Origin: Yinghuangia seranimata
GTDB taxonomy: Bacteria > Actinomycetota > Actinomycetes > Streptomycetales > Streptomycetaceae
Direction: 5' to 3'
NCBI RefSeq assembly: GCF_029953285.1
Contig: NZ_JASAOI010000069.1
Span: 1-64,000, forward strand
DNA length: 64,000 nt
Part shown: piece by piece, positions 8,821-52,064 of the stretch
How positions within the stretch are numbered: the stretch's first letter is position 1
Layout: the number at the start of each line of letters is the position of its first letter
Position numbers and translations under genes: made by a program
The notes under the pieces: model-generated
Seen by the model: only the letters and a program-made list of their open reading frames with translations
Database searches by the model: none
Told to the model about the DNA's origin: nothing

Positions 8821-9174
8821 TCAGGCCGACCCCTCGGCGCGCACCACCGCACCCGGATCGCCCGTGAACCACGCCAGCGCGACCGCCCCGCACGGCGCCG
8901 ACGAGTCGTACCGTGTGCCGCCGCCCGGCACGGTCACCCACCGGCCGGGCCGGTAGGTGCTCCCGTTCATGCGCAACTCGCCCGACAGCAGCAGGAAATG
9001 CTCGTCGAAGGCATAGGCGACCGCGGTCGGCCGCGCCCACCCCGGCGGGAACCGCACCAGCGCGGAGACCGCACCCGAGCCGGCGTCCCACCGCAGCGTC
9101 GCGAGCCGCACCGGCGTCGCGGTGAACGGCATGACGAAGTCCCGCCACCGCAACGCGGGCCCCCGCGGGCTCAC
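8821..9174 (-). CDS. Cupin-domain protein, last gene of the catabolic operon
   Basis: A 117-residue single cupin. The two cupin motifs are seen loosely as FDEHFLLLSGELRMNGSTYRPGRWVTVP and the second strand set ALAWFTGDPG. The metal-binding histidine pattern is incomplete (only one H, in DEHF), so catalytic competence is doubtful. The start is taken as the GTG overlapping the TGA of the acyl-CoA dehydrogenase gene, which gives RWRDFVMPFTATPVRLATLRWD as N-terminus; an internal ATG at 9132 is the alternative. It is the last gene of the coupled acyl-CoA operon. Function unknown; ChrR-like or DUF4437-like cupins are comparable. Confidence 0.75.
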   Translation of the reverse strand: MSPRGPALRWRDFVMPFTATPVRLATLRWDAGSGAVSALVRFPPGWARPTAVAYAFDEHFLLLSGELRMNGSTYRPGRWVTVPGGGTRYDSSAPCGAVALAWFTGDPGAVVRAEGSA

Positions 9175-10337
9175 CCCCCGATCGCCTCGACGCCCGCCAC
9201 CAGGGACTTCGCGATCACCGTCCGCAGGATGTCGTTCGTGCCCTCGCCGATCGCCATCAACGGCGCGTCCCGGTACAGCCGTTCGACGACGAACTCCTGC
9301 GAGTAGCCGTACCCGCCGTGGATCCGCATCGCGTCGAGCGAGCAGGTGAGCGCCGCCTCCGACGCGACGAGTTTGGCCATGCCCGACTCCATGTCCACGC
9401 GCTTGCCCGCGTCCGCGCGCGACGCCGCCCAGTAGACCAGCAGCCGCGCGGCCTGCACGCCGGCGGCCATGTCGGCGAGCTTGAGCTGGACCGCCTGGAA
9501 GCCGCTGATCGGCTGCCCGAAGGCGTGCCGCTGCCGGGAGTACTCCAGGGCCTCGTCGTACGCCCGCTGCGCGACCCCGACCGCGCGCGCCGCCACGTTG
9601 ATGCGCCCCGTCTCCAGGCCGGACAGCGCCTGCTTCATCCCGACGCCCTCGACGCCGCCGAGCAGCCGCGAGGCAGGCACCCGCACGTCCGTCAACAGGA
9701 GTTCGCACGACTCGGGGCCCTTGTAGCCGAGCTTGGGCAGGTCGCGCAGCACCTCGAACCCGGGCGTGTCCGTATCGATCAGCAACACGCTCATGCCGCG
9801 GTGCGCGGGAACCGCCTCGGGGTCGGTCTTCACGAGCACGGGCAACACGGCGGCGTGCCGCGCGTTGGTGATCCAGGTCTTGGCGCCGTTGACGACGTAG
9901 GTGTCACCATCGAGCCGCGCGGTGGTACGGATGCCCTGCAGGTCGGTTCCGGCGTCCGGCTCGGTCAGCGCGATGCCCGAACGCCATTCCCCGCTCGCGA
10001 GTTTCGGCAGGTAGTGCGAGCGCTGCTCGGGCGTGCCGTGCCGCGCGATCATCCAGCAGGCGAGCGAGTGCGAGCCGAGGATGCCCGCGACGCCCATCCA
10101 ACCGCGCGAGATCTCCTCGAAGACCAGGGCGAACGACACCATGTCGACGGCGAGTCCGCCGTACTCGTTCGGCACGGTCAGACCGAAGAGGCCCAACGAC
10201 CGCATGGTGTCGACGATTTCCGTGGGGTAGCGCCCGGTACGCTCCCACTCGGCGGCGACCGGTTCCACCTCCTTGCGCACGAAGTCCCGCAGCGTGCGCT
10301 GGAACATCTTCTGTTCGTCGTTGAGTTCGAAGTCCAC
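9171..10337 (-). CDS. Acyl-CoA dehydrogenase
   Basis: A 388-residue flavoprotein of normal length. The N-terminal helical domain (MDFELNDEQKMFQRTLRDFVRKEVEP), the middle-domain signature IALTEPDAGTDL with KTWITNA, and the C-terminal RQRHAFGQPISGFQAVQLKLADM and IHGGYGYSQEFVVERLYRDAPLMAIGEGTNDI are all present. The catalytic glutamate is expected in the YRDAPLMAIGEGTNDI segment. It introduces an alpha-beta double bond in an acyl-CoA. It belongs to an operon with DUF35, thiolase and MaoC genes, resembling beta-oxidation or sterol side-chain modules; unlike its neighbours it looks intact. Confidence 0.95.
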   Translation of the reverse strand: MDFELNDEQKMFQRTLRDFVRKEVEPVAAEWERTGRYPTEIVDTMRSLGLFGLTVPNEYGGLAVDMVSFALVFEEISRGWMGVAGILGSHSLACWMIARHGTPEQRSHYLPKLASGEWRSGIALTEPDAGTDLQGIRTTARLDGDTYVVNGAKTWITNARHAAVLPVLVKTDPEAVPAHRGMSVLLIDTDTPGFEVLRDLPKLGYKGPESCELLLTDVRVPASRLLGGVEGVGMKQALSGLETGRINVAARAVGVAQRAYDEALEYSRQRHAFGQPISGFQAVQLKLADMAAGVQAARLLVYWAASRADAGKRVDMESGMAKLVASEAALTCSLDAMRIHGGYGYSQEFVVERLYRDAPLMAIGEGTNDILRTVIAKSLVAGVEAIGG

Positions 10338-10352: not shown

Positions 10353-10808
10353 TCACGCGTCGGGGTCCGGTCGGAAGACTGGCAGCGCGCGGCCGTCCGG
10401 CAGCGGGCGCCACGCCAGGACGACCGGCAGATCGCAGGCGAGCCGGTCGAGGGGGCAGTCGACGATGTTGGTGAGCAGGACGGGGCCCTCCGCGAGGCGC
10501 ACGCGCGCCACGACGTAGGGCGGGGTCAGGTCGGGGCGCGGCGCGCGGTGGGTGACCGAGTAGGTGTCGATCCGGCCGCGGCCGGACACGTCGGTGAACT
10601 CCAGCGAAGTTTTTCCACAGGCTGTGCACAACGCGCGCGGATAGTGCTGGAGATGTGCACAATCCAGGCACCGCTGGACGACCAGGCGGCGCTCTCGGGT
10701 CGCGTCCCACCAGCCCGCAGTGACCTCGTCCGGCGGCGGAACGCGGTATTCCGGCGGGCTTTCGGCGTTGCCGCCGGTGTGCTCGGCAGTGCTCGCTTCA
10801 GTACCCAT
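10353..10808 (-). CDS. Zn-ribbon OB-fold protein (DUF35)
   Basis: A 151-residue protein with a rubredoxin-like zinc ribbon (CLDCAHLQHYPRALCTACG, about residues 47-65) followed by an OB-fold (about 70-140: GRGRIDTYSVTHRAPRPDLTPPYVVARVRLAEGPVLLTNIVDC). These proteins act with thiolase-like or MaoC-like partners, for example ChsH2 in sterol side-chain degradation, and are thought to shape the active site or substrate entry. Here it lies between the acyl-CoA dehydrogenase and the damaged thiolase. It looks intact; the 28-bp gap to the thiolase stop fits one transcript. Confidence 0.9.
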   Translation of the reverse strand: MGTEASTAEHTGGNAESPPEYRVPPPDEVTAGWWDATRERRLVVQRCLDCAHLQHYPRALCTACGKTSLEFTDVSGRGRIDTYSVTHRAPRPDLTPPYVVARVRLAEGPVLLTNIVDCPLDRLACDLPVVLAWRPLPDGRALPVFRPDPDA

Positions 10809-10835: not shown

Positions 10836-11417
10836 TCATCGGTCCCGGCCCAGCAGCACTGTGGCATGTGTCGAGAAGATGCCGCCGGTGCCATGCGCCA
10901 ACGCCACCGAAGGATCCGCCACTTGGCGGGCACCGCACTCGCCGCGCAGCTGCCGCACGGCCTCGACCAGCAGCAAGAGGCCGTACATGCCGGGGTGGTT
11001 GTACGACAGACCGCCGCCGCTGGTGTTGAACGGCAGCGCGCCGCCGGGCCGCAGCCGCCCGTCCGCGACGAAATCCGGCCCCTCGCCGGGCGCGCAGAAG
11101 CCGACCGCCTCCAGGCCGAGCAGCGCGGTGATCGTGAACGAGTCGTACACCTCGACGACGTCCACGTCGGCGGGCCCGAGCCCGGCCATCCCGTACGCGC
11201 GCGCTGCGGCGTCGAACGAGCCGGGGCGCAGAAGGTTATCCACAGCCGCCATGCCGGAGTTGGTGGTCGACTCGCCGTATCCGAGCACCACGACGGGGTC
11301 CGGACGCAGGTCGCGGGCCCGTTCGAGGGACGTGACGACGACCGCGCCGCCGCCGTCGGGGACGGTGACGGTGACGCCCAGGTCGGACTCGGCGACGCCG
11401 ACGATCGCCGCGGTCAC
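10836..11417 (-). pseudogene. Thiolase-family gene with a large in-frame internal deletion
   Basis: The product is only 193 residues, against about 380-400 for SCP-x/Ltp-type thiolases. The first 14 residues (VTAAIVGVAESDLG) match the extreme N-terminus of such enzymes, but then the sequence jumps to DGGGAVVVTSLERARDLRP, which normally lies near residue 200. From there the C-terminal half is complete, including NTSGGGLSYNHPG and AHGTGG. About 190-200 residues of the N-terminal catalytic domain are thus missing in frame. The GTG start overlaps the stop of the MaoC gene (GTGA). With half the thiolase fold gone, activity is very unlikely. An assembly collapse cannot be excluded. Confidence 0.8.
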
Positions 11418-11848
11418 ACCGGCCTCCCCACGACGACGGTGGCACCCGCCGGGCCGACGGCGACGCGCTCCGGCGCGCCGTCCGCGCCCAGCACGACGAC
11501 CTCCTGCTCGACCGTCACCGTGTCGCCCTGGACGGCGGTGACCCGGCCCGTGCAGCGCACCCGCTCGCCCGCGAACACCAGGCCCCGGAAGCGGAACCGC
11601 AACGCTGTCAGGCGCGCGTTCGGGCCGAGCCAGTCGAGCAGTTGCTCGGCCAGCAGGGCGCCGAACACCTGGCCGTCCACCACGGGGGCGGGCAGCCCGC
11701 GTTCGGCCGCCCACGTGTCGTCGTGGTGCATGCGGTGCCAGTCCCAGGTCGCACCCGCATAGGCGACCATCGACACGCGGTCCATCGTGCGTTCCAGCGG
11801 CGGGACGTCGGTGCCCGCCGCCGGGAGACCGCCTCGCACAGCGGTCAC
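11414..11848 (-). CDS. MaoC-like acyl dehydratase
   Basis: A 144-residue hot-dog fold protein. The hydratase-2-like motif appears as AGATWDWHRMHHDDTWA followed by GLPAPVVDGQVFGALLAEQLLDWLG, with Asp and His in the catalytic positions, then the strand set LRFRFRGLVFAGERVRCTGRVT. The form resembles ChsH1-type subunits that work beside a DUF35 protein. It would hydrate an enoyl-CoA made by the acyl-CoA dehydrogenase. The GTG start (11848) overlaps the stop of the upstream RidA-like gene, and its own stop overlaps the thiolase start. Confidence 0.88.
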   Translation of the reverse strand: MTAVRGGLPAAGTDVPPLERTMDRVSMVAYAGATWDWHRMHHDDTWAAERGLPAPVVDGQVFGALLAEQLLDWLGPNARLTALRFRFRGLVFAGERVRCTGRVTAVQGDTVTVEQEVVVLGADGAPERVAVGPAGATVVVGRPV

Positions 11849-12199
11849 GGCTGCGCCGTCCAAATGATCGTCTCCTCGTCGGTCGCGAGCGGTGCGCCGT
11901 GCTGGTCGGTGTAGCGGGCGGTGACGTTCTCCACCACGCGCGTCACGTCGTCCAGGCCGAGGCCGGCCGCGGCGAGGATCGCGCGGATCTTGGCGTACGC
12001 GGTGCGGGTCTGCCGGGCCATGCCGCCGTTGACGACGATCCGCCCGGCGTCCGGGTCGTACTCCGACGCCGAGTGCTTGCCCGGACAGGACCGCCTCGGT
12101 GCCGCCGTCGGGCAGCGTGCGAGCCAGCCCGAGCGAGAAGGTGTAGCCCTCGTAGCGGAACCACGGGAAGTCGGCGGGTCGGATCGGTGCGTACGGCAT
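11845..12199 (-). pseudogene. RidA-like gene with a single-base frameshift
   Basis: From ATG 12199 the product begins MPYAPIRPADFPWFRYEGYTF and runs to GGTEAVLSG; the next codons go out of frame at a GGG run (12080-12082 on the + strand as CCC). In the next frame the protein continues perfectly as KHSASEYDPDAGRIVVNGG and NVTARYTDQHGAPLATDEE to TIIWTAQP and a TGA at 11845. Removing one G gives a normal RidA/YjgF-type protein of about 117 residues. The restored stop overlaps the MaoC start (GTGA), so the shifted frame is the true one. Either a real mutation or a homopolymer sequencing error. RidA proteins deaminate reactive enamines/imines. Confidence 0.85.
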
Positions 12200-12231: not shown

Positions 12232-13611
12232 TTACGCGACGCTGCCCTTCCCGGCCGCCACCTGCGCCGTCAGATCCAGCAGCGGGCCGAGCCCGCGCAC
12301 GGTTCCCAGCGCGCGCAGCTGCGCCGCCAGGTGCTCCGAATCGGGCGTCATGCCACCGGCGTTGGCGTGGAACTTGGCCATGAGCGCGGTGTCCGACATC
12401 GCCGTCGTCGCCGGCTCCTCCGCGCGCTCCTGGCGGCCGCCGCGGAACCGCACGGTCAGTCGCCCCGGCGCGGTCGCCGCCTCGCCGTCCCCGCGCGCCT
12501 GCACGAAACGGACGCGCTGGGCGAGTTCGTTCAGCTGGACGCGTCTCGTGCAGCCCTCGGAGTAGGTGTCGACGCCGACCGAGCCGTCCGTGAGCATCGC
12601 GGCGAGCGTCCAGGCCAGCGAGAACTTCGCGTCGTAGACGGTCTTCGGGTACGCCTTGTCCGGCCCGCACACGATCGGCACGGCCTCCTTCGGCACGGTC
12701 ACCTTGACCGACTCGACGTCGGCGGCGGTCAGCCCGGCCTCGGCCATCCTCGCGACGACCGTCTGGGCGGCGTTGAGCGAGGCGTGGATCAACTGGCAGC
12801 ACGGGTAAGGCTTCGGCGTCACACGCAGCAGCTCCCACCGGTCGCCGAGCCCGCCCAGTACCTGGTGCGGGGCGACGGTCCGCCCGGCGAGCGCGCGGAA
12901 CACCCCGAACTCGCCCTCGAACACGGTGTCGGGCCCGGTCGCGCCGGCCGCGGCGAGCCGCGCGGCGAGGATGCCGTTCGAGGCCGCCTGCCCCGGGTGC
13001 AGCTGCTTGGTGGCCGATCCCGTGCTCAGGAACTCCAGCAGCCCGCCCGCCGAACTCCCGGCTATGCCCAGCGCGTTGACGGTGCGGTCGACGTCCAGCC
13101 GCATCAGCCGGGCGCTGACCAGCGCCGCGGCGAGCACCCCGGCGACGCCGGTCGCGTGTATGCCGCGCGCGTGGAACGCGTGCGGCGCGGCGGCGCCGAT
13201 CCGGCACGCCGTCTCCATCCCGGCGACGGCCGCCAGCAGCACCTCGGCGCCGGTCGCGCGCTGCTCCTGGCCGACCGCGAACGCCGCGGCCAGCACCGGC
13301 GCGGTGGAGTGCACCAGCCCGCCGGGATGCGTGTCGTCGAAGTCGAGGGCGTGGACGAGGGTGCCGTTGGCAAATGCGGCCGCGGGCGCGCCGATACGCG
13401 GACCGCCCGAGCCGATCACCGTGGCCTTGCGCGGCCCGCCGAGCGCCGCCGCGACGCCGACCGCGGGCTCGGCGGCGCCGAGCCGCGCGGCGGCGAGGGC
13501 GGTGCCGACGCCGTCCAGCAGGCCGCGGCACGCCGCGTCCCTGACCTCGTCGGGTGCGGTGTCGTTCGTCAGTCCCAGGGCCCACAAGGTCAGGTGTGCG
13601 GCGACGGTCAT
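12232..13611 (-). CDS. MmgE/PrpD family protein
   Basis: A 459-residue protein of the MmgE/PrpD (2-methylcitrate dehydratase-like) family. Typical features are GTLVHALDFDDTHPGGLVHSTAPVLAAAFA (about residues 80-110), the later HPGQAASNGILAARLAAAG, KPYPCCQLIHA and the DAKFSLAW segment. It probably acts as a dehydratase or isomerase on a small carboxylic acid. The ATG overlaps the stop of the upstream remnant (ATGA). The length is normal and no lesion is seen, so it is one of the intact genes of the operon. Confidence 0.92.
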   Translation of the reverse strand: MTVAAHLTLWALGLTNDTAPDEVRDAACRGLLDGVGTALAAARLGAAEPAVGVAAALGGPRKATVIGSGGPRIGAPAAAFANGTLVHALDFDDTHPGGLVHSTAPVLAAAFAVGQEQRATGAEVLLAAVAGMETACRIGAAAPHAFHARGIHATGVAGVLAAALVSARLMRLDVDRTVNALGIAGSSAGGLLEFLSTGSATKQLHPGQAASNGILAARLAAAGATGPDTVFEGEFGVFRALAGRTVAPHQVLGGLGDRWELLRVTPKPYPCCQLIHASLNAAQTVVARMAEAGLTAADVESVKVTVPKEAVPIVCGPDKAYPKTVYDAKFSLAWTLAAMLTDGSVGVDTYSEGCTRRVQLNELAQRVRFVQARGDGEAATAPGRLTVRFRGGRQERAEEPATTAMSDTALMAKFHANAGGMTPDSEHLAAQLRALGTVRGLGPLLDLTAQVAAGKGSVA

Positions 13612-13962
13612 GTCTGCTCCCCGAACGCACCGGCGCGGCCCAGTGCCGCGATCCTGTCCTCGTCGTACCCGAGGGGATCGCGGAGTACGTATGCGCGCGC
13701 CGTAGCGCGGGTGCTCGGTCTCGACGACCAGGCCGCGCGCCTCGCTCTGCGGGTCGGCGAGCGTACGGCGGTCCTCGAACGTCGCGTACGGCGAACCCGG
13801 TTCGGTCCCGGCTTGCGCCATCCTCCGCACGGGGTGGAACTGCGGTGCGGCTCGGGCACCCACACGACGTCGGCGCCGACCCGCTCGGCGGCGGCCGCGG
13901 CCGCGCGCAGCTCGGCGAGCGTCTCGCCCCAGGGGCCGTACGTAATGCGCAGCCGGGTCACC
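13608..13962 (-). pseudogene. Chimeric remnant: luciferase-like monooxygenase start joined to a CoA-transferase end
   Basis: GTG 13962, with GGAGG upstream, starts VTRLRITYGPWGETLAELR and continues to VGADVVWVPEPHRSS, the first ~42 residues of an F420/flavin luciferase-like oxidoreductase. The frame then changes: the +1 frame reads GSPYATFEDRRTLADPQSEARG then VVETEHPRYG, the C-terminal part of a family III (CaiB/BaiF) CoA-transferase. Another shift near 13695 restores the original frame for YVLRDPLGYDEDR, IAALGRAGAFGEQT and a stop that overlaps the MmgE start. So two former genes have been fused by a deletion of well over 1.5 kb, with at least one further frameshift. No function is expected. 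Confidence 0.75.
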
Positions 13963-14055
13963 GGAGCACCTCCGTCGTGCGAAGCAGTTTCGCAGAGCGG
14001 TTCCCTGTTCCAGTTTTGCCGAGTTCTTTGTACCCGCTCCCAGGGGCGAACAAAA

Positions 14056-14088
14056 GACGGGCCCGGCGCGGAACGCGCCGGGCCCGTC
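14056..14088 (-). terminator. Intrinsic terminator of the TerD-vWA gene
   Basis: A 15-bp perfect stem (14056-14070 with 14074-14088), GAA loop, followed in the - direction by a CTTTTGTT run. It lies 13 bases after the stop of the TerD-vWA gene and insulates the catabolic operon downstream. Confidence 0.9.
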
Positions 14089-14101
14089 CACGTGTCGGCG
14101 G

Positions 14102-15592
14102 CTACCGGATGATGCCGCGCTGCCGGGCGGCCGCGAGCCACTGCGGGAACTCGCTCAGCAGACGGTCGTACAGCTCGGTGTCCGTGACCTTGTCCAGGTC
14201 GTCGACGCAGAAGAAGCCCGCGTTGTCGACCGCGCGGCCCGGCATCGTGTCGAACTTCTCGAGGATGCCGTAGTCGGCGCGGCCGAGGCCGACGAACTGC
14301 CAGAAGATCGGCAGGGTGCTGGCCTGGGTGAGGAGTTCGCCGATCTGGCGGCTGCGGTTGATGCCGCCGTCCGAGAAGAACAGCACGAGGACGGGGTCGC
14401 CCGGCTGGCTGGTGTAGAGGCGCACGATGTCGTTGATGACCGGCGGCTCGTTGTTGCCGCCGCGGATGCGCTCCAGCTGGTCCGGGACGCGCGGCGAGCC
14501 GTTCGGCAGCGGCGGCAGCTGCTGGCCCTTCGACACGATGTACACGTGCTGCTCGATCCAGCGCGCCAGCTCGGGGACACGGAAGGACGGCAGGCGGCTG
14601 TAGTCGTCGGCGAAGATCCACGCGTCCAGCGAGCCGTCCGAGTCGAGCTTGGCCGCGACCGGCGCCATCCGCTCGACGAGCCGGCCGACCGCGCCCTCGC
14701 CGTACAGCTTGCGCATCGACCCGGAGCGGTCCAGGACGATCGCCACGCGGGCCCGCACACCGGTAAGGCCCTTCTTCTCCAGCGTGACCCGCACGGTCTC
14801 CTTGCGCAGCGAGACCATCGCGCCCATCTGCGGCGGCAGCGCGGCGACCTCGTGGTCGTCGGCGGGGTTGGGCAGGCGCACGGTGGCGTCGCCCGCGCCG
14901 GCGGGCGCGGGCGGCGGCGCGAACGACGGCGCGGGGGCGGCCGGAGGGGCGAACGACGGGGCAGGAGCCGTGGGCGGCGCGAACGACGGCGCGGGGGCGG
15001 CCGGGGGCGCGAACGAGGGCGCCGCGGCGGGCGCCGCCACCGCCTCGGACTGCTCCGTGTCGTCCTCGGCGATCGAGACGCCGTAGTCGGTCGCCAGCCC
15101 CGCGAGTCCCGAGTCGTACCCCTGCCCGATGGCGCGCAACTTCCACGCGCCCTGGCGCCGGTACAGCTCGCCCAGCACCATCACGGTCTCGCTGCCGCGC
15201 GCCTGCACGGGGTAGGTCGCGAGCTGCGCGCCGGACGCGTCCACCAGGTCGAGCGAGAGCCCGGTGACCGCCGCGAACGTCCCCGCGTGCACCGACGCCG
15301 CCACCACGACCCGGTCGACGTCGGCCGGCAGCAGCCCCGGACGCACCGTCAGGAACTCGACGCCCTGCTGCGCGCCCACTTGGTGGGCGACCGCGCCGCC
15401 CGCCGCCTGGGGCTGGTTGTAGAAGACGAAGTCGTCGTCGGAGCGGACCTTCCCGGCCGCGGTGACCAGGAGCGCCGACGCGTCCACGGCCGAGGCGCCG
15501 TATCCGTGCGCGCCCGGGGACCAGCGGACCACCAGAGAGAGATCCCCGGCCGGGACGGGGACGTTGGCACCGGCGGTGAGGGTCGTCGTCAT
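14102..15592 (-). CDS. TerD-domain protein fused to a von Willebrand A domain
   Basis: A 496-residue cytoplasmic protein. Residues 1-185 are a TerD (tellurium-resistance, calcium-binding) domain, with DSDDD-like acidic patch VRSDDDFVFYNQPQA and the GSETVMVLGELYRRQGAWKLRAIGQGY segment. Residues 190-250 are a proline/alanine linker with four copies of a ten-residue unit (APAPSFAPPA type). Residues 255-490 are a vWA domain with an intact metal site DRSGSM (D288, S290, S292). TerD-vWA proteins belong to ter-type stress systems that may organise membrane-linked complexes. It lacks other ter genes nearby. The start was placed at MTTTLTAGANVPVP, the usual TerD opening. Confidence 0.9.
   Translation of the reverse strand: MTTTLTAGANVPVPAGDLSLVVRWSPGAHGYGASAVDASALLVTAAGKVRSDDDFVFYNQPQAAGGAVAHQVGAQQGVEFLTVRPGLLPADVDRVVVAASVHAGTFAAVTGLSLDLVDASGAQLATYPVQARGSETVMVLGELYRRQGAWKLRAIGQGYDSGLAGLATDYGVSIAEDDTEQSEAVAAPAAAPSFAPPAAPAPSFAPPTAPAPSFAPPAAPAPSFAPPPAPAGAGDATVRLPNPADDHEVAALPPQMGAMVSLRKETVRVTLEKKGLTGVRARVAIVLDRSGSMRKLYGEGAVGRLVERMAPVAAKLDSDGSLDAWIFADDYSRLPSFRVPELARWIEQHVYIVSKGQQLPPLPNGSPRVPDQLERIRGGNNEPPVINDIVRLYTSQPGDPVLVLFFSDGGINRSRQIGELLTQASTLPIFWQFVGLGRADYGILEKFDTMPGRAVDNAGFFCVDDLDKVTDTELYDRLLSEFPQWLAAARQRGIIR
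14911..15030. repeat. Four 30-bp tandem repeats in the TerD-vWA linker
   Basis: The Ser-Phe codon pair recurs at 14921, 14951, 14981 and 15011, exactly 30 bp apart, with near-identical flanks encoding APAPSFAPPA-type units. Such in-frame repeats can vary in number between strains. Confidence 0.85.
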
Positions 15593-17767: not shown

Positions 17768-18652
17768 TCACGTGATCACCCCCGCCTTGATCAGGCGCTC
17801 GAGCGTCTCGGGCTGGCGGCGCGCGAACCACGCGCGGTCCGGGACGGTGTAATCCGGCGGCTTCGCGGCGGCCTCGCCGTCGGCCGCGCCCTCCGCGGCC
17901 CCGTTGGACGCCGTCCCCTCCGACATGAGGCCATTGGGCGTCTCGCCCGTCGCGCGCGCGTACTCGCCCGCCCACAGGGCGGGTTTGCCGCGCGCGAGCA
18001 GGTTGCCCATGCCCGGTCGGCGCCGCGTGCGCCGCAGCGCGGCGAGGTCGAGCTCGGCGTTCGCCACCATGCTCTCCCCAACGCCCGCCTCCACCAGAAC
18101 GGTTCCGGTGAAGTCGACGACCTGCGACATGCCGTCGGTCGAACCGCCCGGAATCGCCGTGCCGGTGATGCCCGCCGTGTTGGCCGACACCACGTACGCG
18201 TGGTTCTCCACAGCGCGCGCGATCCGCGCCACCGACTTCGGGGTCGGCCGCGGGCTGCCCGCCTCCGACGTGGAGTGGCACAGCACCTCGGCGCCGCGCA
18301 GCGTCAACGCCCGGGCCGGCTCGGGGTACAGGATCTCCTCAGAGGCCAGCGCCGCCAGGTTGCCCAGCGGCGTGCGGGCGACCGGGAGCACGCCGTCGAT
18401 GCCGTACACGTCCAGGTACTTGTCCAGGACGTACTCGGGCAGCACCACGGGGCGCACGTCCGGTCCGATGAGGGCGATGCTCGCGGCGGTCTCGGCCCGG
18501 ATCCGGGTTATGGCCCGCCCGATGGCCTCCCGCGCGTCCTCCGGCGCCAACGCGTCGACCGCGTCGCACCGTGACCGCAGGGCGAGCGCCCGGTAGTGCG
18601 GGTCCCAGCCCGCCGCGCCGGAGCCGCCGCTGTGTCCGTCGTACCCGTCCAT
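17768..18652 (-). CDS. Nitrilase-superfamily protein lacking the canonical catalytic cysteine
   Basis: A 294-residue protein with the carbon-nitrogen hydrolase fold: RCDAVDALAPEDAREAIGRAITRI, VVLPEYVLDKYLD (catalytic Glu region), TPLGNLAALASEEILYPEPARALTLRGAEV and STSEAGSP. In active nitrilases the segment after GNL reads like LICYD; here it is ALASEE, so the nucleophile cysteine is replaced by serine. A cysteine does occur 25 residues later (EVLCHSTS) but not in the usual place. Upstream of the ALDH gene by 136 bp, probably one unit. It may be a non-catalytic or divergent family member; the lesion-free frame argues against a pseudogene. Confidence 0.8.
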   Translation of the reverse strand: MDGYDGHSGGSGAAGWDPHYRALALRSRCDAVDALAPEDAREAIGRAITRIRAETAASIALIGPDVRPVVLPEYVLDKYLDVYGIDGVLPVARTPLGNLAALASEEILYPEPARALTLRGAEVLCHSTSEAGSPRPTPKSVARIARAVENHAYVVSANTAGITGTAIPGGSTDGMSQVVDFTGTVLVEAGVGESMVANAELDLAALRRTRRRPGMGNLLARGKPALWAGEYARATGETPNGLMSEGTASNGAAEGAADGEAAAKPPDYTVPDRAWFARRQPETLERLIKAGVIT

Positions 18653-37654: not shown

Positions 37655-38506
37655 ATGGCACTTCAGGCATCCGGAGGCGGCGCGTTCGAGGACGGCGCAC
37701 GGAGCGCGGCACCGGTCGCCGTGGTGATCCCGGCGCACGACGAGGAGCGCAGGATCGGCGCGACGGTCCGGGCCGCGCGGGTCGTCGACGGGGTGGACCT
37801 GGTCGTCGTGGTCGACGACGGGTCCCGGGACGGCACCGTCCGCGCGGCGGCGGCGGCGGGCGCGGTGGTCGTCCGCCACGGCCGCAACCGCGGCAAGGCC
37901 GCGGCGATGGAGACCGGCGCCGCCGCGGTGGCCGCCGTCGACGCACGCGAGGGCCGGAGGACGCCGGAGACCGCGCACCTGCTCCTCTTCCTGGACGGCG
38001 ACCTGGAGGAGAGCGCCGCCAACACCGCCCCGCTCGTCGACCCGGTACGGGCGGGGACGGCCGCGATGTCGATCGCGGTCCTCCCCCCGCAGAAGCGCGC
38101 AGGCGGCGGCCACGGCTTCGTCGTCCGCGCCGCACGCGACGGCATCCGCCGGGCCAGCGGCTTCATCGCGACCCAACCGCTGTCGGGCCAACGCTGCCTG
38201 ACCCGCGAAGCATTCGACGCGGCCCTCCCGCTCGCCGCCGGCTTCGGCGTGGAGACGGGCCTGACGATCGACCTGGTCCGCCAGGGTTACCCGGTGTGCG
38301 AGGTTGAGGTCGACCTCCACCACCGCGTGACCGGCAAGGACTGGGCCGCCCAGCGCCACCGCGCCAAGCAGTACGCCCACGTCGCCCGAGCCCTCGCCGA
38401 ACGCGGCGCGGTGGGCGCCCTCCCCGGAGCGCTCCGCGCGGGAACGAGCGGCGGCACCGTCGAGGGCGATGGGGTGTCCCGCGAGCCCGGTGGTGGGGGG
38501 TCTTGA
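37655..38506 (+). CDS. Family 2 glycosyltransferase
   Basis: A 283-residue cytoplasmic GT-A enzyme. The N-terminal VVIPAHDEERRIGATVRAARVVDGVDLVVVVDDGSRDGTV, HGRNRGKAAAMETG and the divalent-ion DxD in LLFLDGDLEES are typical of GT2 proteins that transfer sugars to lipid or protein acceptors. The start was set at ATG 37655. It runs into the membrane mannosyltransferase-like gene after 29 bp, so the two probably form one pathway for a lipid-linked glycan, for example polyprenol-phosphate-sugar synthesis followed by transfer. Confidence 0.9.
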   Translation: MALQASGGGAFEDGARSAAPVAVVIPAHDEERRIGATVRAARVVDGVDLVVVVDDGSRDGTVRAAAAAGAVVVRHGRNRGKAAAMETGAAAVAAVDAREGRRTPETAHLLLFLDGDLEESAANTAPLVDPVRAGTAAMSIAVLPPQKRAGGGHGFVVRAARDGIRRASGFIATQPLSGQRCLTREAFDAALPLAAGFGVETGLTIDLVRQGYPVCEVEVDLHHRVTGKDWAAQRHRAKQYAHVARALAERGAVGALPGALRAGTSGGTVEGDGVSREPGGGGS

Positions 38507-38535
38507 CGGCTCGTCAGGGTGGTGGGTCGTCTGAG

Positions 38536-40008
38536 ATGTTTCACGTGAAACACAACGCCGCAGGTCAGGGGCGCGCGTCACTCGTGTGCCTTGGGGTCGG
38601 GATCGGGCTGCTGCTCGTCACCGGGCTGCTCGGGACGTCGGCGGCGCAGCCGCCGGTGCCTGGGGGGCCTGGGTGGTTGCCGCCGTACGACCTCGGGGGT
38701 GGGCCGTCCGCAGGGCTGGTCACCGGGTTGTTGCTTGCGTCGGCGCTGGTCGGGGCCGTCGGGTTGGGGCTCGCGATGGTCGCGTTGCGGGCCGGGTGGG
38801 CGCCTGATCCGCGGCGGCTCACGGTCGCCGGGGCGGTCGCGGCGGGGGCTGTCGTTCTCGTTCCGCCCATGGGGTCGGCCGACCATCTCGTGTACGCGGC
38901 GTACGGGCGGCTGGCCGCGACCGGCGGGAACCCGTACACCGAGACGGCGTCGGACCTCGCCCGCGCCGGGGATCCGGTGGGCCGGGCGGTCGAGGCGCCG
39001 TGGCAGGACACTCCTTCGGTGTACGGCCCGTTCGCGACCGCCGAGCAGTGGCTCGCGTCCAGGATCGGCGGGACGTCGGCGCACACCACAGTGTTCGTGC
39101 TGACCCTGCTCGGCGCGGTCGCCTTCGTGCTGACCGGACTGCTGCTCCAGCGGCTCGCCGGGCCCGACCACGGTGCCCGCTCGCGTGTCGCGCTCCTGTG
39201 GTCGCTGAACCCGCTCCTGCTGTTCGTGGCGGTGAACGCCGGGCATGTGGACGCGTTCGCCGTGGCGTTCGCCGTCGCGGCGCTGGTCGCCGTGCGCAGT
39301 TCCCCCGTGCTCGCCGGCGTGCTGGTCGGTCTCGCGTGTGCGACGAAGGTGACGCTCGGCCTGTTCGTGCTCGCCCTGGTCTGGGGTCTGCGCCGCCGTC
39401 CGAAGGCGATCGCGCAGCTGCTCGGCTCCGCGGCCGTGGTCGGCGTGCTGGCCTATCTCCCGGTCGGCACCGACGCGTTCGCCCAGATCCGGGAGAACAG
39501 CAAGCTCGTCTCGCTGGCGACCGCGCTGCGGCTGACGGTGCACCCGTTGGAGTCGGTGCTCGCGCCGGACACCGCGCGCACGCTGATCGGGGCCGTCGGG
39601 TGGCTGCTGCTCGTCGTCGTCGCCTGGCTGCTGGCCCCGGTCGTCGCGCGGGCCGCGCGCCGCGGGCCGCTCGGAGGAGAGGCAGTGCTGCCGGACGCGG
39701 TGGGCGCCGCCGCCCTGTTGACGCTGGCGTGGCTGCTGACCGCGCCGTACAGCCTGCCCTGGTACGACGTGGCGGCCTGGGCGCCGTTCACAGTGCTGGC
39801 GGCGAGCGCGGCGGACGGCCTGCTGCTGGCCCGCACGGCGTTCATGGTGTGCGCGTACGTGCCGGGCCGCGCCGTGCCGCTGCCGGACGCGGTCGACGCG
39901 TTCGCCCGGACCGTGCGCGGCACGGTCGGCCCGTACGTCGGGGTCGCGCTGCTGCTAGGTGCGCTGTGGCTGGGCCTGCGGGCGCGGCGGGGCCGCGTCG
40001 CCGGTTGA
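38536..40008 (+). CDS. GT-C membrane glycosyltransferase, MptB/GT87-like
   Basis: A 490-residue integral membrane protein with about eleven helices. Near the N-terminus the GT-C signature appears as MGSADHLVYAAYGRLAATGGNPYTETASDL, with the catalytic Asp in SADH, and later WQDTPSVYGPFAT. This fits polyprenol-phosphomannose-dependent mannosyltransferases (MptB-like). It would use the product of a GT2 enzyme, and the GT2 gene lies 29 bp upstream. The ATG at 38536 immediately precedes a parS sequence encoding FHVKHN, so this start is debatable; an internal start is possible. It overlaps the convergent phosphatase-like gene by 54 bp. Confidence 0.85.
   Translation: MFHVKHNAAGQGRASLVCLGVGIGLLLVTGLLGTSAAQPPVPGGPGWLPPYDLGGGPSAGLVTGLLLASALVGAVGLGLAMVALRAGWAPDPRRLTVAGAVAAGAVVLVPPMGSADHLVYAAYGRLAATGGNPYTETASDLARAGDPVGRAVEAPWQDTPSVYGPFATAEQWLASRIGGTSAHTTVFVLTLLGAVAFVLTGLLLQRLAGPDHGARSRVALLWSLNPLLLFVAVNAGHVDAFAVAFAVAALVAVRSSPVLAGVLVGLACATKVTLGLFVLALVWGLRRRPKAIAQLLGSAAVVGVLAYLPVGTDAFAQIRENSKLVSLATALRLTVHPLESVLAPDTARTLIGAVGWLLLVVVAWLLAPVVARAARRGPLGGEAVLPDAVGAAALLTLAWLLTAPYSLPWYDVAAWAPFTVLAASAADGLLLARTAFMVCAYVPGRAVPLPDAVDAFARTVRGTVGPYVGVALLLGALWLGLRARRGRVAG
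38537..38552. promoter_or_regulatory. parS: parS (ParB binding) site
   Basis: Perfect match to TGTTTCACGTGAAACA, the ParB site of bacteria including Streptomyces (core GTTTCACGTGAAAC). It coincides with codons 1-6 of the GT-C gene. Streptomyces parS sites cluster around oriC, so this suggests an origin-proximal location. Confidence 0.96.
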
Positions 40009-42216
40009 GGAGGCGGTGTCGTCGTCCGCGGCGACCGCGGCGAGGACGGCGGCGCCCAGGGGGACGGCCAGCAGCAGGGCCACCGACGGGATCTGTATCC
40101 CCGAGTCGTTGACCGCGTAGCCGACGACGGCGGTGATCCAGCACGCGATGAGCGCCGGGCGCAGCCAGCTCACGCGGGCGTACGCGGGCGGCAGCGCCGT
40201 GGCGCGCAGCCGGGGCGGGTTGAGCACGGCGACGAGGAGCAGCACCATCGCGACCGGGATCAGGTAGCTGACGGGCGAGTTGAAGGTGCCGAGGTTGGCC
40301 GCGACCTTGCGGTGCAGCACGCTGCCCGCGTCGCCGTCGAGCACCTGCTGCACGAACTTGCCCAGGTGCGAGCGGCTGGCGGCGGGCCGCATCCAGTCGA
40401 GGACCGCGATGACGGTGATGGTCGCGACGGCGCCGAGCGCGATGAGCCCGACCTTGATCCACGAGATCCGCGTGCCGGTGAGCAGCAGGCCGAGGACCGC
40501 GAAGCCGGGCACGAGCGCGAGGACGCCGCCGAAGTCGCTGCCGAACGCCGGCCATCCGTTGACCACGATCGCGGCCAGTCCGCACCCGGCGAGCAGGGCC
40601 ACGGCCGCGCGCCTGCGGCCCTGGTCGAGGAGACGGCCGACGGGCCAGGCGACGGCGAGGACGACGACCATGCCGTACACCGACCAGGCGACGTTGCCGA
40701 AGCCGTAGAACCGTCCGGCGACGAGCGGGGAGAGCCCGAAGATCGTGTTCATCTGCAGGTGCGACCCGGTGGCCACGTCGCCGGCCAGCACCGCGACCGT
40801 GGCCGCGGCGGCGAACCCGGCGGGGCCGTAGGGCGAACGCCGCCACGGTCCCGCGAACGCGAGCGCGGCGAGCACCGCCGTCCAGGCGAGGGTGAGCCCG
40901 ATGATCGCGAGCTCCGGGCTGCCGGCCTTCTCCCAGGGGAACAGGGCGACCAGGAACGTCGCGGCCGGCACCGACGCGACCGTGACACCGAGGACCTGCA
41001 TGCCTCGGTGCAGCCGCTTGCGGGCCGTCGGCGCGGCGCCGTTGCGGCGCATGCGGCCGGACCACGCGACGCCGATGCCGAACAGCAGCAGCGGCAGCAG
41101 GGTGAGCCACGTGAAGAACTGGTACTTCTCGCGCACGGTCCGCGCGGCCGCCGCGCCGACGTCGAGCAGGCCGAGCTCGCGCACGGCGGCGGCGCCGGTC
41201 GGGCCTCCGGTGCGGGTGACGACCGCGCCGATCATCGCCTCCGGCTGCTCGATCCCGAGCTGGGACAGCAGGCTGGGCGCGATGTCGGTGATCTGCACCA
41301 TGCCGTCGTAACGGGTGGACGTGGCGGTGAGCACACCGCCGCCGAACGGGGCCGGGCCGCCCACGGTGAACATCCGCAGGTGCGGGACACCGCCGTCGTC
41401 GGAGATGCCGGCCACGTCCAGCCGGGAGTTCGGCGGCAGCGCCGCGGCGATGCGGCCCAGCGCGGTGTCGAACGCCCGCAGCCGCTCGGCGCGGTCGGGC
41501 TGGAACCGCGGCGCCAGGCCGTCGCCGCCGACCGGCTCCGCGGTGCCGGCCTCAGGGCCGAGGTCGACGAGCGTCAGCGCGCTGCGGGCGATGGCGCCGG
41601 TGTCGAGGGCCGTGCTGTCCGGGAGGTAGGCGGCGGGGCTGCGGCCGTGCTCGTCGGCGGTCGCCAGCGCGGCGCCGGGGCCGACCGCGGTGACGGTCCG
41701 GCCCGCCTTGGCCACCGTGGCGGCCAGCAGGCCGAACGTCGGGTCGTACGAGAACTTGTCGTTGCGCTTGGAGATCGCCGGCATCTCCGGCACGGTCAGG
41801 CCGCCGTCGGGTCCGACCACCGGGTCGACGGGGAGCGCGCAGCCGTGCGCGTGGCTGTCCGTCGAGCGCACGCCCGCGCCGACGGTGAGCCAGCCGTCGT
41901 TGGGGCAGCCGCGCAGGTTGGGGGTGCGCACGGACAGCGCGGCGGAGGTGCTGCGGCCGACGAGCGCGTACAGGTTGGGCGTGCCGGAGGCGGTGACGTC
42001 CGACCACATGAGGCCGGGGACGCCGACGAAGACGACGTGCTCGGTCGCGGCGACGGGCGCGACGCCGGGCGACGCGGCAGGCGCGGTCGGCGCGGGGCCG
42101 ACGGCCGGGGCGGCGGCCGCGGAGGGCGCCGGCAGCAGCGCGAGGACGGTCGCGAGGAGCGTGGCGACCGAGGCGGCGAGCACGGCGAGGTGCGGCCTGG
42201 TCGGGCGGGGCGTCAC
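39955..42216 (-). CDS. Membrane protein with alkaline-phosphatase-like N-terminal domain
   Basis: About 753 residues. A signal peptide (residues 8-35) leads to an outer domain (about 45-400) with strands like HVVFVGVPGLMWSDVTASGTPNLYALV, DNDKFSYD, LTLVDLGPE and QITDIAPSLL, a broken alkaline-phosphatase/sulfatase fold. The C-terminal half has about ten membrane helices. Such proteins may transfer a phospho-group to a lipid-linked glycan, but the usual metal-binding residues are unclear here. The start is at GTG 42216 with GAGGAG upstream. Convergent with the GT-C gene, whose end it overlaps by 54 bp. Confidence 0.8.
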   Translation of the reverse strand: MTPRPTRPHLAVLAASVATLLATVLALLPAPSAAAAPAVGPAPTAPAASPGVAPVAATEHVVFVGVPGLMWSDVTASGTPNLYALVGRSTSAALSVRTPNLRGCPNDGWLTVGAGVRSTDSHAHGCALPVDPVVGPDGGLTVPEMPAISKRNDKFSYDPTFGLLAATVAKAGRTVTAVGPGAALATADEHGRSPAAYLPDSTALDTGAIARSALTLVDLGPEAGTAEPVGGDGLAPRFQPDRAERLRAFDTALGRIAAALPPNSRLDVAGISDDGGVPHLRMFTVGGPAPFGGGVLTATSTRYDGMVQITDIAPSLLSQLGIEQPEAMIGAVVTRTGGPTGAAAVRELGLLDVGAAAARTVREKYQFFTWLTLLPLLLFGIGVAWSGRMRRNGAAPTARKRLHRGMQVLGVTVASVPAATFLVALFPWEKAGSPELAIIGLTLAWTAVLAALAFAGPWRRSPYGPAGFAAAATVAVLAGDVATGSHLQMNTIFGLSPLVAGRFYGFGNVAWSVYGMVVVLAVAWPVGRLLDQGRRRAAVALLAGCGLAAIVVNGWPAFGSDFGGVLALVPGFAVLGLLLTGTRISWIKVGLIALGAVATITVIAVLDWMRPAASRSHLGKFVQQVLDGDAGSVLHRKVAANLGTFNSPVSYLIPVAMVLLLVAVLNPPRLRATALPPAYARVSWLRPALIACWITAVVGYAVNDSGIQIPSVALLLAVPLGAAVLAAVAADDDTASSTGDAAPPRPQAQPQRT

Positions 42217-42275
42217 GGTGCGGGGCTCCTCGTCGGTCCGGTGCGGGCGGCACCAGGCTATGCGGAGCCCAGGTC

Positions 42276-42719
42276 TCACACGGGCAGCAGTGCGTCCTTG
42301 CGCCAGCGCAACGACTTCTCGAAACGGATGACCGCGCCCTTGCGCGGGTGGTTGCGCAGTTGGACGCGGTCGCTCATGGCCTCGATCAGCAGCAGCCCCC
42401 GGCCGTTCTCGGCGCCCGTCGAGGCGATGTGGTGCAGCGGGGTGCGCAATCGTTCGGCGCTGAACCCGGGGCCTGTGTCGCTGACCTCGACGCGGCAGCG
42501 GTTGCCGGTGATTCCGGCACGGACCTCGAACTCGGCCTCGGGATTGGCGCCGCGTGCGTGCTCGACGACGTTCGCGCAGGCCTCCGACAGCGCCAGACCG
42601 ATCTCGGCGGCCACTCCGGGGTCCACGCCGGCGGTCTCCATGGCGCCCATCAGCAGTCTCCGCACCATGGGAACGCTCGCCGTCTCCCGGGGAAGGTGGA
42701 CGGTCCACCGCATGTCCAT
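42276..42719 (-). CDS. ATP-binding anti-sigma-like protein (HATPase_c)
   Basis: A 147-residue protein of the RsbW/SpoIIAB-like group. N-box EIGLALSEACANVVEHA, G1 box VEVSDTGPGFSAERL and G2 box ENGRGLLLIEAMSDRV are all clear. The start has GGAGG upstream. It lies 59 bp upstream of the phosphatase-like gene and divergent from the copper locus by 266 bp. Without a nearby sigma factor its partner cannot be named. In Streptomyces similar ATPases occur between the copper cluster and glycan genes. Confidence 0.92.
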   Translation of the reverse strand: MDMRWTVHLPRETASVPMVRRLLMGAMETAGVDPGVAAEIGLALSEACANVVEHARGANPEAEFEVRAGITGNRCRVEVSDTGPGFSAERLRTPLHHIASTGAENGRGLLLIEAMSDRVQLRNHPRKGAVIRFEKSLRWRKDALLPV

Positions 42720-42985
42720 GAACGGCCTCCGCTCAGAGGGTCGCATTCAAGATCGCATTCAGGATCCGCGCCGGGATCCGGGTGTCTCGCGGGAGAGACT
42801 CAGCGCATATACCCAAATCCCATAGAAAGTCAACAATTGAATTTTTCCCCAGCAGAGGCGTCCTGTATCGCGCGGTACGGGATTCGAGGGATCTCCACCA
42901 ACTCCTTCATCAGGTGTCCCTCGGACGGCGGTACGGCGGAGGGTGCGGCGGAATCGGGGACCCGCGCTCGTGGCGCGCGGGCGCG

Positions 42986-43765
42986 ATGAGAGCATGGGGC
43001 GTCATGCTCGCCGTGTCCCTGCCCCTTCGCGCCGCGCGCGCCGCCGTGTTCGCCGCGGTGTGCGTCGCGCTGTCGGCGGCCGGGCACGCGTTCATGACCA
43101 GCGAGCCGCTGCCGCTGTGGACGGTCGGCGCCGGCTTCGGGGCGGTGTTCGCGGTCGCGTTCGCGGCCGCCGGACGCGAGCGGTCGCTCGGCGGGATCGC
43201 CGCGCTGCTCGCGCTCGCCCAGATCGGCCTGCACACGCTCTTCAGCGTCGGGATGGCGGCCGCGGCCGCCCCCGCGATGACCGGCCACCACGGCGGCGCC
43301 ACGCTCCTCGACCGGCTGCTGTGCGGCAGCCGCGACTCGGCCGGGCACATCGTGCTCCCCCAGGGCTGGTCGGCCCGCGAGATCGTGGCGGCGGCCGGGC
43401 TGAACCCGGACGCGCCCAACGCGCTGCCCGCGCCCGGCTCCGGCCACGCGGCAGGGCACACGATCGGCCCGATGCTCTTCGACGGCGGGTACGGCATGCT
43501 CGCCGCGCACGCCCTCGCCGCGCTGGTCACCGCCTGGTGGCTGCGCCGGGGCGAGGCGGCGCTGTTCGGCCTGCTGCACCGGCTGCACACGACGGTGGCC
43601 GCGCCGCTGCGCGTGGTCCTGGCCGTCCTGTTCGGGGTTCCCCGCACGGGGTACCGCCCGCCGGCCGTGCGCGCGTTCGACCGTGCGACACCCGGTCCGC
43701 GGCCGGTCGTGCTGCGGCACGCCGTCGTGCGCCGCGGGCCGCCCGCGTTCGCCACCGCCTGCTGA
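42986..43765 (+). CDS. Membrane protein at the head of the copper locus
   Basis: About 259 residues with five or six hydrophobic segments (for example VSLPLRAARAAVFAAVCVALSAAGHAFM, WTVGAGFGAVFAVAFAAAG, IAALLALAQIGLHTLFSVGM). It carries histidines and methionines in a loop (MTGHHGG, GSGHAAGHTIGPM) that could bind copper. The start is ATG 42986 or the ATG at 43004. It stands first in a row of copper genes on the same strand and is probably a copper-related membrane protein, but I do not recognise a family. Confidence 0.75.
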   Translation: MRAWGVMLAVSLPLRAARAAVFAAVCVALSAAGHAFMTSEPLPLWTVGAGFGAVFAVAFAAAGRERSLGGIAALLALAQIGLHTLFSVGMAAAAAPAMTGHHGGATLLDRLLCGSRDSAGHIVLPQGWSAREIVAAAGLNPDAPNALPAPGSGHAAGHTIGPMLFDGGYGMLAAHALAALVTAWWLRRGEAALFGLLHRLHTTVAAPLRVVLAVLFGVPRTGYRPPAVRAFDRATPGPRPVVLRHAVVRRGPPAFATAC

Positions 43766-44016
43766 CGAACCGGACGCGACTCCGCGACCGGGGAATCACC
43801 CGTTCGGTGGAACGGGGACGGCAGGCGGCTCATGACCGCGCATCCTGCCCCGCCCGCCTTCCGGCCGCGCGCCGAGTCGGCCGACGCACTCGTCGACCGG
43901 CGCCTGAGCGCCGTCCGGAGCCCCGGGCAACCCGGTCCCCGCACGCCCCGCCCGAACGCGGCACTCCGCCGCGCGGCCGCGACCCTGCGTGCGCCCACTC
44001 CTGGAGTCCAGAAACG

Positions 44017-44775
44017 ATGCAGCTCAACACCCTGCGCCGCCGTGCCGCGATCCTCACCGCCGGCTCCGTCGCCGCAGTGCTCGCCCTCGCCGCGCCCGCG
44101 TCCGCGCACGTCACCGTGCAGCCGGTCCAGGCCGAGCAGGGCGGCTACGCCGCCGTCGCGTTCCGCGTCCCGAACGAGAACGACGCGGCCGGCACCACCA
44201 AGCTCGAGGTCCAGCTGCCCGAGGACAAGCCGCTGACGTCCGTCCGCACCCGCCCGCTCGCGGGGTGGACGGCGACCATCGAGAAGCGGCCGCTGGCCAC
44301 GCCGATCACGTCGCACGGCAAGCAGATCACCGAGGCGGTCGCCAAGGTGACGTGGACGGCGAACGCCGGCGTGCGCATCGCCCCCGGCCAGTACGAGGAC
44401 TTCGAGGTGTCCATGGGCGCCCTGCCCACCGACACCGACAAGCTGGTCTTCAAGGCGCTGCAGACGTACGACAACGGCGACGTCGTCCGCTGGATCGACG
44501 TGCCCGGCCCCGACGGCAAGGAGCCGGAGAAGCCGGCCCCCACCCTGAAGCTCGTCCCCAAGGCCGGTGCGGCCGGCACGCCCGCCGCGTCCCCGGCCGC
44601 GCAGCCCGCGCCGGCGGACAAGAACCTCACCGTGGCCGCCGCGAAGTCCTCGGACGGCAGCGACAGCACGGCGCGCGGTCTCGGCGTCGCCGGCCTCGTC
44701 GTCGGCGTCCTCGGCCTCGCCGTCGGCGCGTTCGGCATCCTCCGCGCGTCGCGCGCCGCGGGTCCGCGCGCGTAA
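44017..44775 (+). CDS. YcnI-like (DUF1775) secreted copper-associated protein
   Basis: A 252-residue protein with signal peptide (residues 1-30, ending APASA-H), so the mature N-terminus starts with His, the usual copper-binding start (HVTVQPVQAEQGGYAAVAFRVPNE). The DUF1775 domain follows, then a Pro/Ala linker and a C-terminal membrane helix (about 222-245). YcnI binds copper outside the cell in Bacillus. The gene leads a block with Sco, PCuAC and CopCD genes on the same strand, with 33 bp to the next. Confidence 0.92.
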   Translation: MQLNTLRRRAAILTAGSVAAVLALAAPASAHVTVQPVQAEQGGYAAVAFRVPNENDAAGTTKLEVQLPEDKPLTSVRTRPLAGWTATIEKRPLATPITSHGKQITEAVAKVTWTANAGVRIAPGQYEDFEVSMGALPTDTDKLVFKALQTYDNGDVVRWIDVPGPDGKEPEKPAPTLKLVPKAGAAGTPAASPAAQPAPADKNLTVAAAKSSDGSDSTARGLGVAGLVVGVLGLAVGAFGILRASRAAGPRA

Positions 44776-44808
44776 CCACCGCCCTACCGTCACGTGATCG
44801 GGAGAACC

Positions 44809-45519
44809 ATGCGCAAGGCACTTGTGAGGACCGCGGCACTCGCGGCGGCGGGCATCCTGTTCGCCGCCGGGTGCAGTGACTCGGGAGACGGCGGCAAGCC
44901 CACAGCGACCGGCGGGGCGCCCGTGCGGATCGACTCGTCGGGCCCGCCGTCCAAGTACCGCGGCACCGAACTCGGCGGCCCGATGGCGAAGCCCGAACTC
45001 ACGCTGACGGACACGTCGGGGCAGGCGTACGACTTCAAGGCCAAGACGGCCGGCAAGGTCACGCTGCTCTACTTCGGCTACACGCACTGCCCCGACGTGT
45101 GCCCCACCACAATGGCCGACCTCGCGCGGGGCCTCACCAAGCTCAAGCCCGAGGACCGCGCAAACGTCGACGTGGTCTTCGTGACCTCCGACCCGCAGCG
45201 CGACACCGGCCCCGAACTGCGTTCGTGGCTCGACGCGTTCGACCCGACGTTCGTCGGTCTGACGGGGTCCTTCGACACGATCCAGGCGGCCGCCAAGAGC
45301 GTCGGCGTGGCCCTGGAGCCGCCGAAGGTCGGCGCGGACGGCAAGGTCACCAGCACCCACGGCACGCAGATCATCGCTTTCGAGCGCGACAATCTCGCGA
45401 GGATCATCTACCTGGCGGGCGTCGGCCTGAACCCGGACGGCACCCCCGCCGGGATCACCGCCGACGACTTCGCCCACGACCTGCCGCTCCTGATCCACCC
45501 CGAGGGAAGCACTCCATGA
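44809..45519 (+). CDS. SCO1/SenC copper chaperone lipoprotein
   Basis: A 236-residue lipoprotein with lipobox FAAGC after an N-terminal signal helix. The thioredoxin-like Sco fold has the copper motif GYTHCPDVCPTTM (CxxxC) and the distal His in TSTHGTQIIAF. Sco proteins metallate the CuA site of cytochrome oxidase or, in Streptomyces, take part in extracellular copper routing to enzymes. RBS GGGAGAACC. Its TGA overlaps the ATG of the PCuAC gene. Confidence 0.95.
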   Translation: MRKALVRTAALAAAGILFAAGCSDSGDGGKPTATGGAPVRIDSSGPPSKYRGTELGGPMAKPELTLTDTSGQAYDFKAKTAGKVTLLYFGYTHCPDVCPTTMADLARGLTKLKPEDRANVDVVFVTSDPQRDTGPELRSWLDAFDPTFVGLTGSFDTIQAAAKSVGVALEPPKVGADGKVTSTHGTQIIAFERDNLARIIYLAGVGLNPDGTPAGITADDFAHDLPLLIHPEGSTP

Positions 45520-47952: not shown

Positions 47953-47995
47953 GCCGGCACCGCGTAGACGAGTCAAGGACACCGAGGGAACCGAG

Positions 47996-49246: not shown

Positions 49247-49252
49247 CGCGCG

Positions 49253-49810: not shown

Positions 49811-49915
49811 GCCCGCGAGGGTCGCACCTCCGCCCCCGCGGTGTCGCGTCGAATTCACGCCCAGCCGACCCGTGTCAGCCGACCACCCGGCCGCGCGAGC
49901 CTGTCGGGGCCGCCG

Positions 49916-51568: not shown

Positions 51569-51575
51569 CGCCGCC

Positions 51576-51869
51576 TCACCCCGCCCCGGCGCGGAACGGC
51601 TCGGCGACCGCGTGGTCGGTCTCGACATCGCGCCGCGCGGTGGCGCCGAGACCGTCGGCGGTGCGCCCGTACGCCACGCCGACCTCGGCGAGCCGGCCGC
51701 GCCAGGACGCGGCGACCTCGACCAGCGCGTCGGAGAAGGCGAAGCCGGGGCACCCGGTCGCGGCGGCGTCGGCGCTGGCCGCGACCTCGTCGGCGAGCCG
51801 CGGCAGCTCGGCGGCGAGCTTCCGCGCGCCGGCTGACGCGCTGTGCAGGGCGGCGGGATCGACGCGCAT
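51576..51869 (-). CDS. Small WXG100/EspC-like protein
   Basis: A 97-residue helical protein (MRVDPAALHSASAGARKLAAELPRLADEVAASADAAATG...AFSDALVEVAASWRGRLAEVGVAYGRTADGLGATA) of the type VII secretion target class, with the ASWRGRL segment where a WxG-like turn is expected. The ATG has GGAGG upstream. Its stop lies 7 bp before the start of the DUF1023 hydrolase gene, so they are co-transcribed. Such small partners often escort a larger effector to the ESX-like secretion machine; no esx core genes are in this window. Confidence 0.8.
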   Translation of the reverse strand: MRVDPAALHSASAGARKLAAELPRLADEVAASADAAATGCPGFAFSDALVEVAASWRGRLAEVGVAYGRTADGLGATARRDVETDHAVAEPFRAGAG

Positions 51870-52041: not shown

Positions 52042-52064
52042 AGAGTCCGGCAACTCACAGGCAC

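Follow-up and report, generated by a model that had tools for sequence, protein, structure and literature searches.

Results

Remains of two genes upstream of mmgE

The window analysed here is a 64,000-nucleotide stretch of the Yinghuangia seranimata genome (contig NZ_JASAOI010000069.1, positions 1 to 64,000). On its minus strand, flanked by a TerD-vWA gene (14102-15592) on one side and by mmgE (12232-13611), which is intact, on the other, lies an open reading frame that runs from a GTG at 13961 to a TGA at 13608 (354 nt, 117 codons and the stop). A preliminary description had taken this frame for a fused stub of two different enzymes, and our comparisons bear that out: it holds what remains of a gene for a luciferase-like monooxygenase (LLM) and of one for a CaiB/BaiF CoA-transferase (CaiB). 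We refer to this scrap as the stub. Its parts, compared with Yinghuangia soli and with a paralogous operon on another contig (C72) of the same genome, are as follows.

13833-13961, minus strand: first 43 codons of LLM; protein identity 77% to Y. soli and 72% to C72
13762-13832, minus strand: 71-nt stretch assigned to neither gene; weak, unproven likeness to CaiB at about residues 273-285
13699-13761, minus strand: 21 residues of CaiB, out of frame with the LLM start; 76% identical to residues 329-349 of Y. soli CaiB
13608-13694, minus strand: last 28 residues of CaiB and the stop, again in the LLM frame; over 25 codons 76% identical to residues 378-402 of Y. soli CaiB

In a search of the same genome, the LLM part matched C72:47054-47199 (76%, E 4.0e-19) and the CaiB part C72:54480-54552 (84%, E 1.1e-13), 7.4 kb away in the paralogous operon. 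Both parts are also matched in Y. soli, where the flanking genes agree on each side, and these matches, like those to C72, are far above chance. We reject a chimeric join of distant loci, as both pieces lie within the same flanks as in Y. soli, although the C72 paralogues are 7.4 kb apart.

The front of the stub had been described as about 42 LLM residues, in agreement with the 43 codons found. Behind it the last ~70 residues of CaiB had been expected, in another frame and with a further shift inside; the CaiB end and its change of frame hold, but the residues form two separate pieces, between which about 28 residues (Y. soli numbering) are absent. Retained are 43 of ~344 LLM residues and ~49 of 409 CaiB residues, and most of each catalytic domain is gone. 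The LLM part reached the Pfam family Bac_luciferase only under the cut-off (E 0.0012; 18.7 bits against 27.9), and the joined CaiB pieces gave no Pfam match.

For the 71 nt between the LLM and CaiB pieces, the lowest shuffle fractions among 30 protein comparisons (0 to 0.02) were obtained for 7 residues resembling Paractinoplanes LLM, while the likeness to Y. soli CaiB at about residues 273-285 gave 0.105. Among 10 DNA comparisons one, with 28 nt of the CaiB gene at the Paractinoplanes locus L027, scored above all 200 shuffles. Because 40 trials make such matches non-decisive, we assign this stretch to neither gene and claim no extra deletion inside CaiB.

Intact relatives and the origin of the stub

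A protein search yielded 51 loci, four of which were examined for operon context. Paractinoplanes atraurantiacus, P. durhamensis and P. tereljensis carry an operon of the order LLM, CaiB, MmgE, RidA, MaoC, MaoC, thiolase, OB-fold protein (OB), acyl-CoA dehydrogenase (ACAD) and CitE. At its head LLM immediately precedes CaiB, both genes are full-length and together they occupy 2148-2178 nt, which agrees with the earlier placement of the stub at the head of a decayed catabolic operon. RidA is weakly similar in Paractinoplanes (28-31%), the match in P. atraurantiacus covering residues 152-378 of 382. The fourth locus (L029) is short and has MmgE only. None of the papers listed by literature searches dealt with this operon in Yinghuangia or Paractinoplanes.

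The C72 operon (38000-57000) comprises genes for CaiB (418 aa), MmgE, a double RidA, two MaoC proteins, thiolase, OB, ACAD, CitE and LLM (344 aa), every one of them a single continuous match, and from its sequence this copy looks complete. The window copy shares the gene order CaiB, MmgE, RidA with C72 and Paractinoplanes. Relative to the window copy, the C72 operon has LLM at its end instead of its front, and DNA identity is ~69-76%. C72 also holds relatives of window genes upstream of TerD: a nitrilase (65%), an aldehyde dehydrogenase (60%) and a DUF3598-like gene (52%).

Two congeners were compared at the orthologous place, Y. soli (G002) and a single-contig genome (G001). In Y. soli the flanking TerD and mmgE genes are identical in kind and CaiB is full-length (PF02515, E 1e-119), but LLM is ~140 residues short, RidA is truncated and the second MaoC gene lacks a start. 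In G001, TerD and mmgE are present, and no DNA match to the remaining genes of the block was found at this place. Alignment with homologous operons, as the preliminary description had proposed, thus revealed the full genes: CaiB in Y. soli, and both LLM and CaiB in C72 and in the three Paractinoplanes. The 117-codon fusion, whose conservation as a protein would speak for a function, is absent from both congeners; Y. soli has separate genes and G001 has neither. Since the break points differ, and each species retains parts lost in the other, the lesions of the window and of Y. soli arose separately.

We therefore regard the stub, with a probability of roughly 85%, as the functionless remainder of an LLM and a CaiB gene that lay side by side, in a catabolic operon whose dismantling is under way in Yinghuangia. 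At least two deletions, one that fused LLM with CaiB and another inside the CaiB end, would have reduced the ~2.2 kb of the two genes to 354 bp. The operon would be undergoing parallel, deletion-driven decay in the genus, for which relaxed selection appears the simplest cause.

The decay may be recent. In the remnants, changes relative to Y. soli are about two to three times as frequent at third codon positions as at first or second ones (0.116/0.116/0.326 for the three positions of the LLM piece). The corresponding ratios are 0.36, 0.42 and 0.41 for the three pieces, and nine neighbouring genes and remnants give 0.10 to 0.50. The remnants thus keep a bias like that of intact genes, which suggests that they lost their function not long ago.

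Several points weigh against decay as the account of the stub. The 71 nt lack an explanation, and the pieces are short (43, 21 and 28 codons). An uninterrupted fused frame that closes at the native stop is what a functional leader would show, though chance suffices for this (see below). Against Paractinoplanes L027 the ratios are 1.04 for the LLM piece, that is, no bias, and 0.86 and 0.62 for the other two; the distance is large, and probably accounts for the missing bias of the LLM piece. Finally, redundancy with the C72 copy fails to explain the losses in the congeners.

Damage is confined to the catabolic block

The other genes of the block in this genome are listed below.

12232-13611, minus strand: mmgE/prpD, intact, 459 aa; MmgE_PrpD_N 2.7e-60, MmgE_PrpD_C 2.1e-21
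11848-12199, minus strand: RidA remnant, frameshifted and joined to the end of the first MaoC gene
11414-11785, minus strand: second MaoC gene, apparently intact, 123 aa
10836-11417, minus strand: thiolase, still in frame, with an internal deletion of ~190 residues; retains Y. soli residues 1-16 and 206-379
10353-10808, minus strand: gene for a ChsH2-like OB-fold protein, intact
9171-10337, minus strand: acyl-CoA dehydrogenase gene, intact, 388 aa; 91% identity to Y. soli
17768-18652, minus strand: nitrilase-like gene, still in frame, with an internal gap of 78 residues compared with Y. soli

The thiolase loss and RidA frameshift reported earlier are thus real, and the nitrilase, first MaoC (MaoC1) and CitE genes are damaged or missing too. 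The nitrilase lesion lies upstream of TerD, outside the operon proper and within the damaged block. The products of mmgE and the acyl-CoA dehydrogenase gene may still be made.

We compared the gene calls of Y. soli (C12:28-109 kb) with the first 80 kb of contig C56. Six of ten block genes are damaged or missing (nitrilase, LLM, CaiB, MaoC1, thiolase and CitE), as against none of 54 other matched genes over ~80 kb (Fisher p 2.8e-6); coverage is at least 93% in each of the 54, among which is TerD. This count leaves out two matches to paralogues at low identity and four unmatched genes from outside the block; scoring all six as damaged still gives p 0.001. The gene caller missed the RidA, second MaoC and OB genes of Y. 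soli, which therefore fall outside the ten. A stricter search found 8 matched genes outside the block with 30-97 uncovered terminal residues and none with an internal gap; in the comparison used for the count, coverage of these 8 is likewise at least 93%.

The confinement of the damage to the catabolic block is evidence against a systematic assembly fault, which the preliminary description had held open; we reject it on the count of damaged genes and on the different lesions at the same place in Y. soli. That the assembler, or template switching in G+C-rich DNA, produced the deletions in this stretch is very unlikely. The genome is a draft of 113 contigs and several deletions lie near each other, as such an artefact would have it, but the matched neighbours are undamaged, an independent assembly of Y. 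soli has different lesions in the same operon, the single-contig G001 is without the operon except for mmgE, and the C72 copy is undamaged in the same assembly.

That copy also bears on the earlier proposal that the pathway is probably lost in this strain, which is unsupported because the second operon looks complete. It may make the decayed block of the window redundant in this genome. DNA searches with the C72 copy in G001 and Y. soli found nothing closer than ~70%, and the copy was perhaps acquired separately. Redundancy is not a general cause of the decay, as Y. soli decays without a second copy close to C72.

The open frame and its signals

The stop of the stub overlaps the start of mmgE as ATGA, an overlap correctly noted before, and no stop interrupts the fused frame between the start of LLM and the native stop of CaiB. 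Its start, ribosome site and ATGA junction could deliver ribosomes into mmgE, and the frame might have been kept for this, as a functional leader. In G001, a 29-codon frame with no relation to LLM or CaiB likewise ends in ATGA at the mmgE start (L024 9345-9001, minus strand), a parallel that fits a leader but may be due to chance; moreover, mmgE has a GGAG-like site of its own. Out-of-frame windows of 47 codons in other genes of the region are open by chance in 44.5% (+1) and 92.7% (+2) of cases, so the open stub frame is unremarkable and needs no selection. Comparison with these windows lends no support to selection for an open frame; the fusion is missing from the two congeners, and its pieces are too short to test for selection. 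A leader function is unlikely, and we retain decay as the account of the frame.

One feature bears on transcription.

14055-14089, minus strand: terminator-like hairpin of 16 pairs, 3' of the TerD-vWA gene; 1 found against 0.1 expected in shuffles

Given this hairpin, the stub probably begins a transcript of its own. No match to a sigma-70-type promoter was found in 13500-14250, and no structured RNA in 13000-15000 by Rfam at gathering scores. Parts of the sequence upstream of the stub (13962-14045; GGGTACAAAG ... GAACCGCT-TGCGAAAC) are conserved in Y. soli, which would be compatible with a promoter or operator.

Persistence of mmgE beside TerD

We surveyed mmgE across the family in 200 genomes. 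A search with the short MmgE from genome G005 (E <= 1e-18) matched 7 of the 200, three from Yinghuangia and four from a related genus designated g4, and in all seven mmgE follows the same TerD-vWA gene. The window MmgE as query (E <= 1e-30) matches in 29 of the 200, at 41% or less except in Yinghuangia and the g4 genome G061.

The TerD-linked MmgE of g4 is 294-300 aa long and without stops in all four genomes (L097, L098, L103 and L111, in G005, G030, G020 and G061, respectively). It lacks the stretches LDFDDTH, VH-(S/T)A, TKQLHPG and KPYP, which are common to the MmgE proteins of Yinghuangia, C72 and Paractinoplanes with small variations (TTQLHPG and KAYP in G001). These stretches form a putative active site, judging in part by residues named in a published study (PMC12290011). 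Codon-position ratios among three of the four g4 genomes are 0.35-0.47 for the short MmgE and 0.38-0.40 for TerD; at the sequence level the short protein is apparently under constraint similar to that of its neighbour.

In a tree of MmgE proteins, those of Yinghuangia, C72 and the short type group together at 90/93, not a strong fork, and this group with Paractinoplanes is split from ten other MmgE rows at 96/94. The place of the short proteins is uncertain because of their long branch (1.39).

These observations bear on the age of the TerD-mmgE pair. It stands without the operon in G001 and in 4 of 4 g4 genomes, as would be expected if the pair were ancestral, the operon had been assembled around it later and the stub were a failed addition, not a loss. 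This course of events is improbable: in the tree these proteins fall with the MmgE of the C72 operon, if not by a strong fork, and, together with that of the Paractinoplanes operons, apart from the ten other rows, and C72 and Paractinoplanes share the CaiB-MmgE-RidA order of the window copy. Under decay of an existing operon, a tentative possibility is that the TerD-linked mmgE was recruited to a new job and so survives each round of deletion, and that this is why scraps of the old operon persist. The short g4 protein without the motifs would be a further step in this change, and the stub a leftover of the former promoter-proximal region, retained because it still drives mmgE.

Discussion

The mechanism behind the stub is ordinary gene decay; it is the surviving mmgE that deserves a second look. 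The intact operon, its partial loss, the lone survivor and the short protein without motifs form a small natural series, which allows the question why a single gene outlasts its operon. The locus also calls for caution in annotation, where the fused frame could be mislisted as a small novel protein, and the pathway listed as lost despite a copy that looks complete elsewhere in the genome.

The nearest solved relative of the window MmgE is the IDS epimerase 2hp3 (E 2.5e-37). The product matches both Pfam domains of the MmgE/PrpD family, to which IDS epimerase, cis-aconitate decarboxylase and 2-methylcitrate dehydratase belong; unlike these, the TerD-linked member of g4 is shortened and without the shared motifs.

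The operon itself recalls the clusters for itaconate and methylsuccinate degradation, whose hydratase is of the MaoC type. A CoA-transferase, a hydratase, a CitE-type lyase, an acyl-CoA dehydrogenase and MmgE occur together in Paractinoplanes and C72, and these five gene kinds, matched by family only, are shared with the Pseudomonas and Cupriavidus cluster (PMC12290011). The actinobacterial operon has in addition LLM, RidA-like, second MaoC, thiolase and ChsH2-like OB genes, and its substrate is therefore uncertain.

The stub resembles the deletion pseudogenes and chance fusions of neighbouring genes found in bacteria, with the ends of adjacent genes joined, frames shifted and intact relatives elsewhere. 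Nothing essential sets it apart from them; the case is richer in that several deletions fall in one operon, with another set in a sister species.
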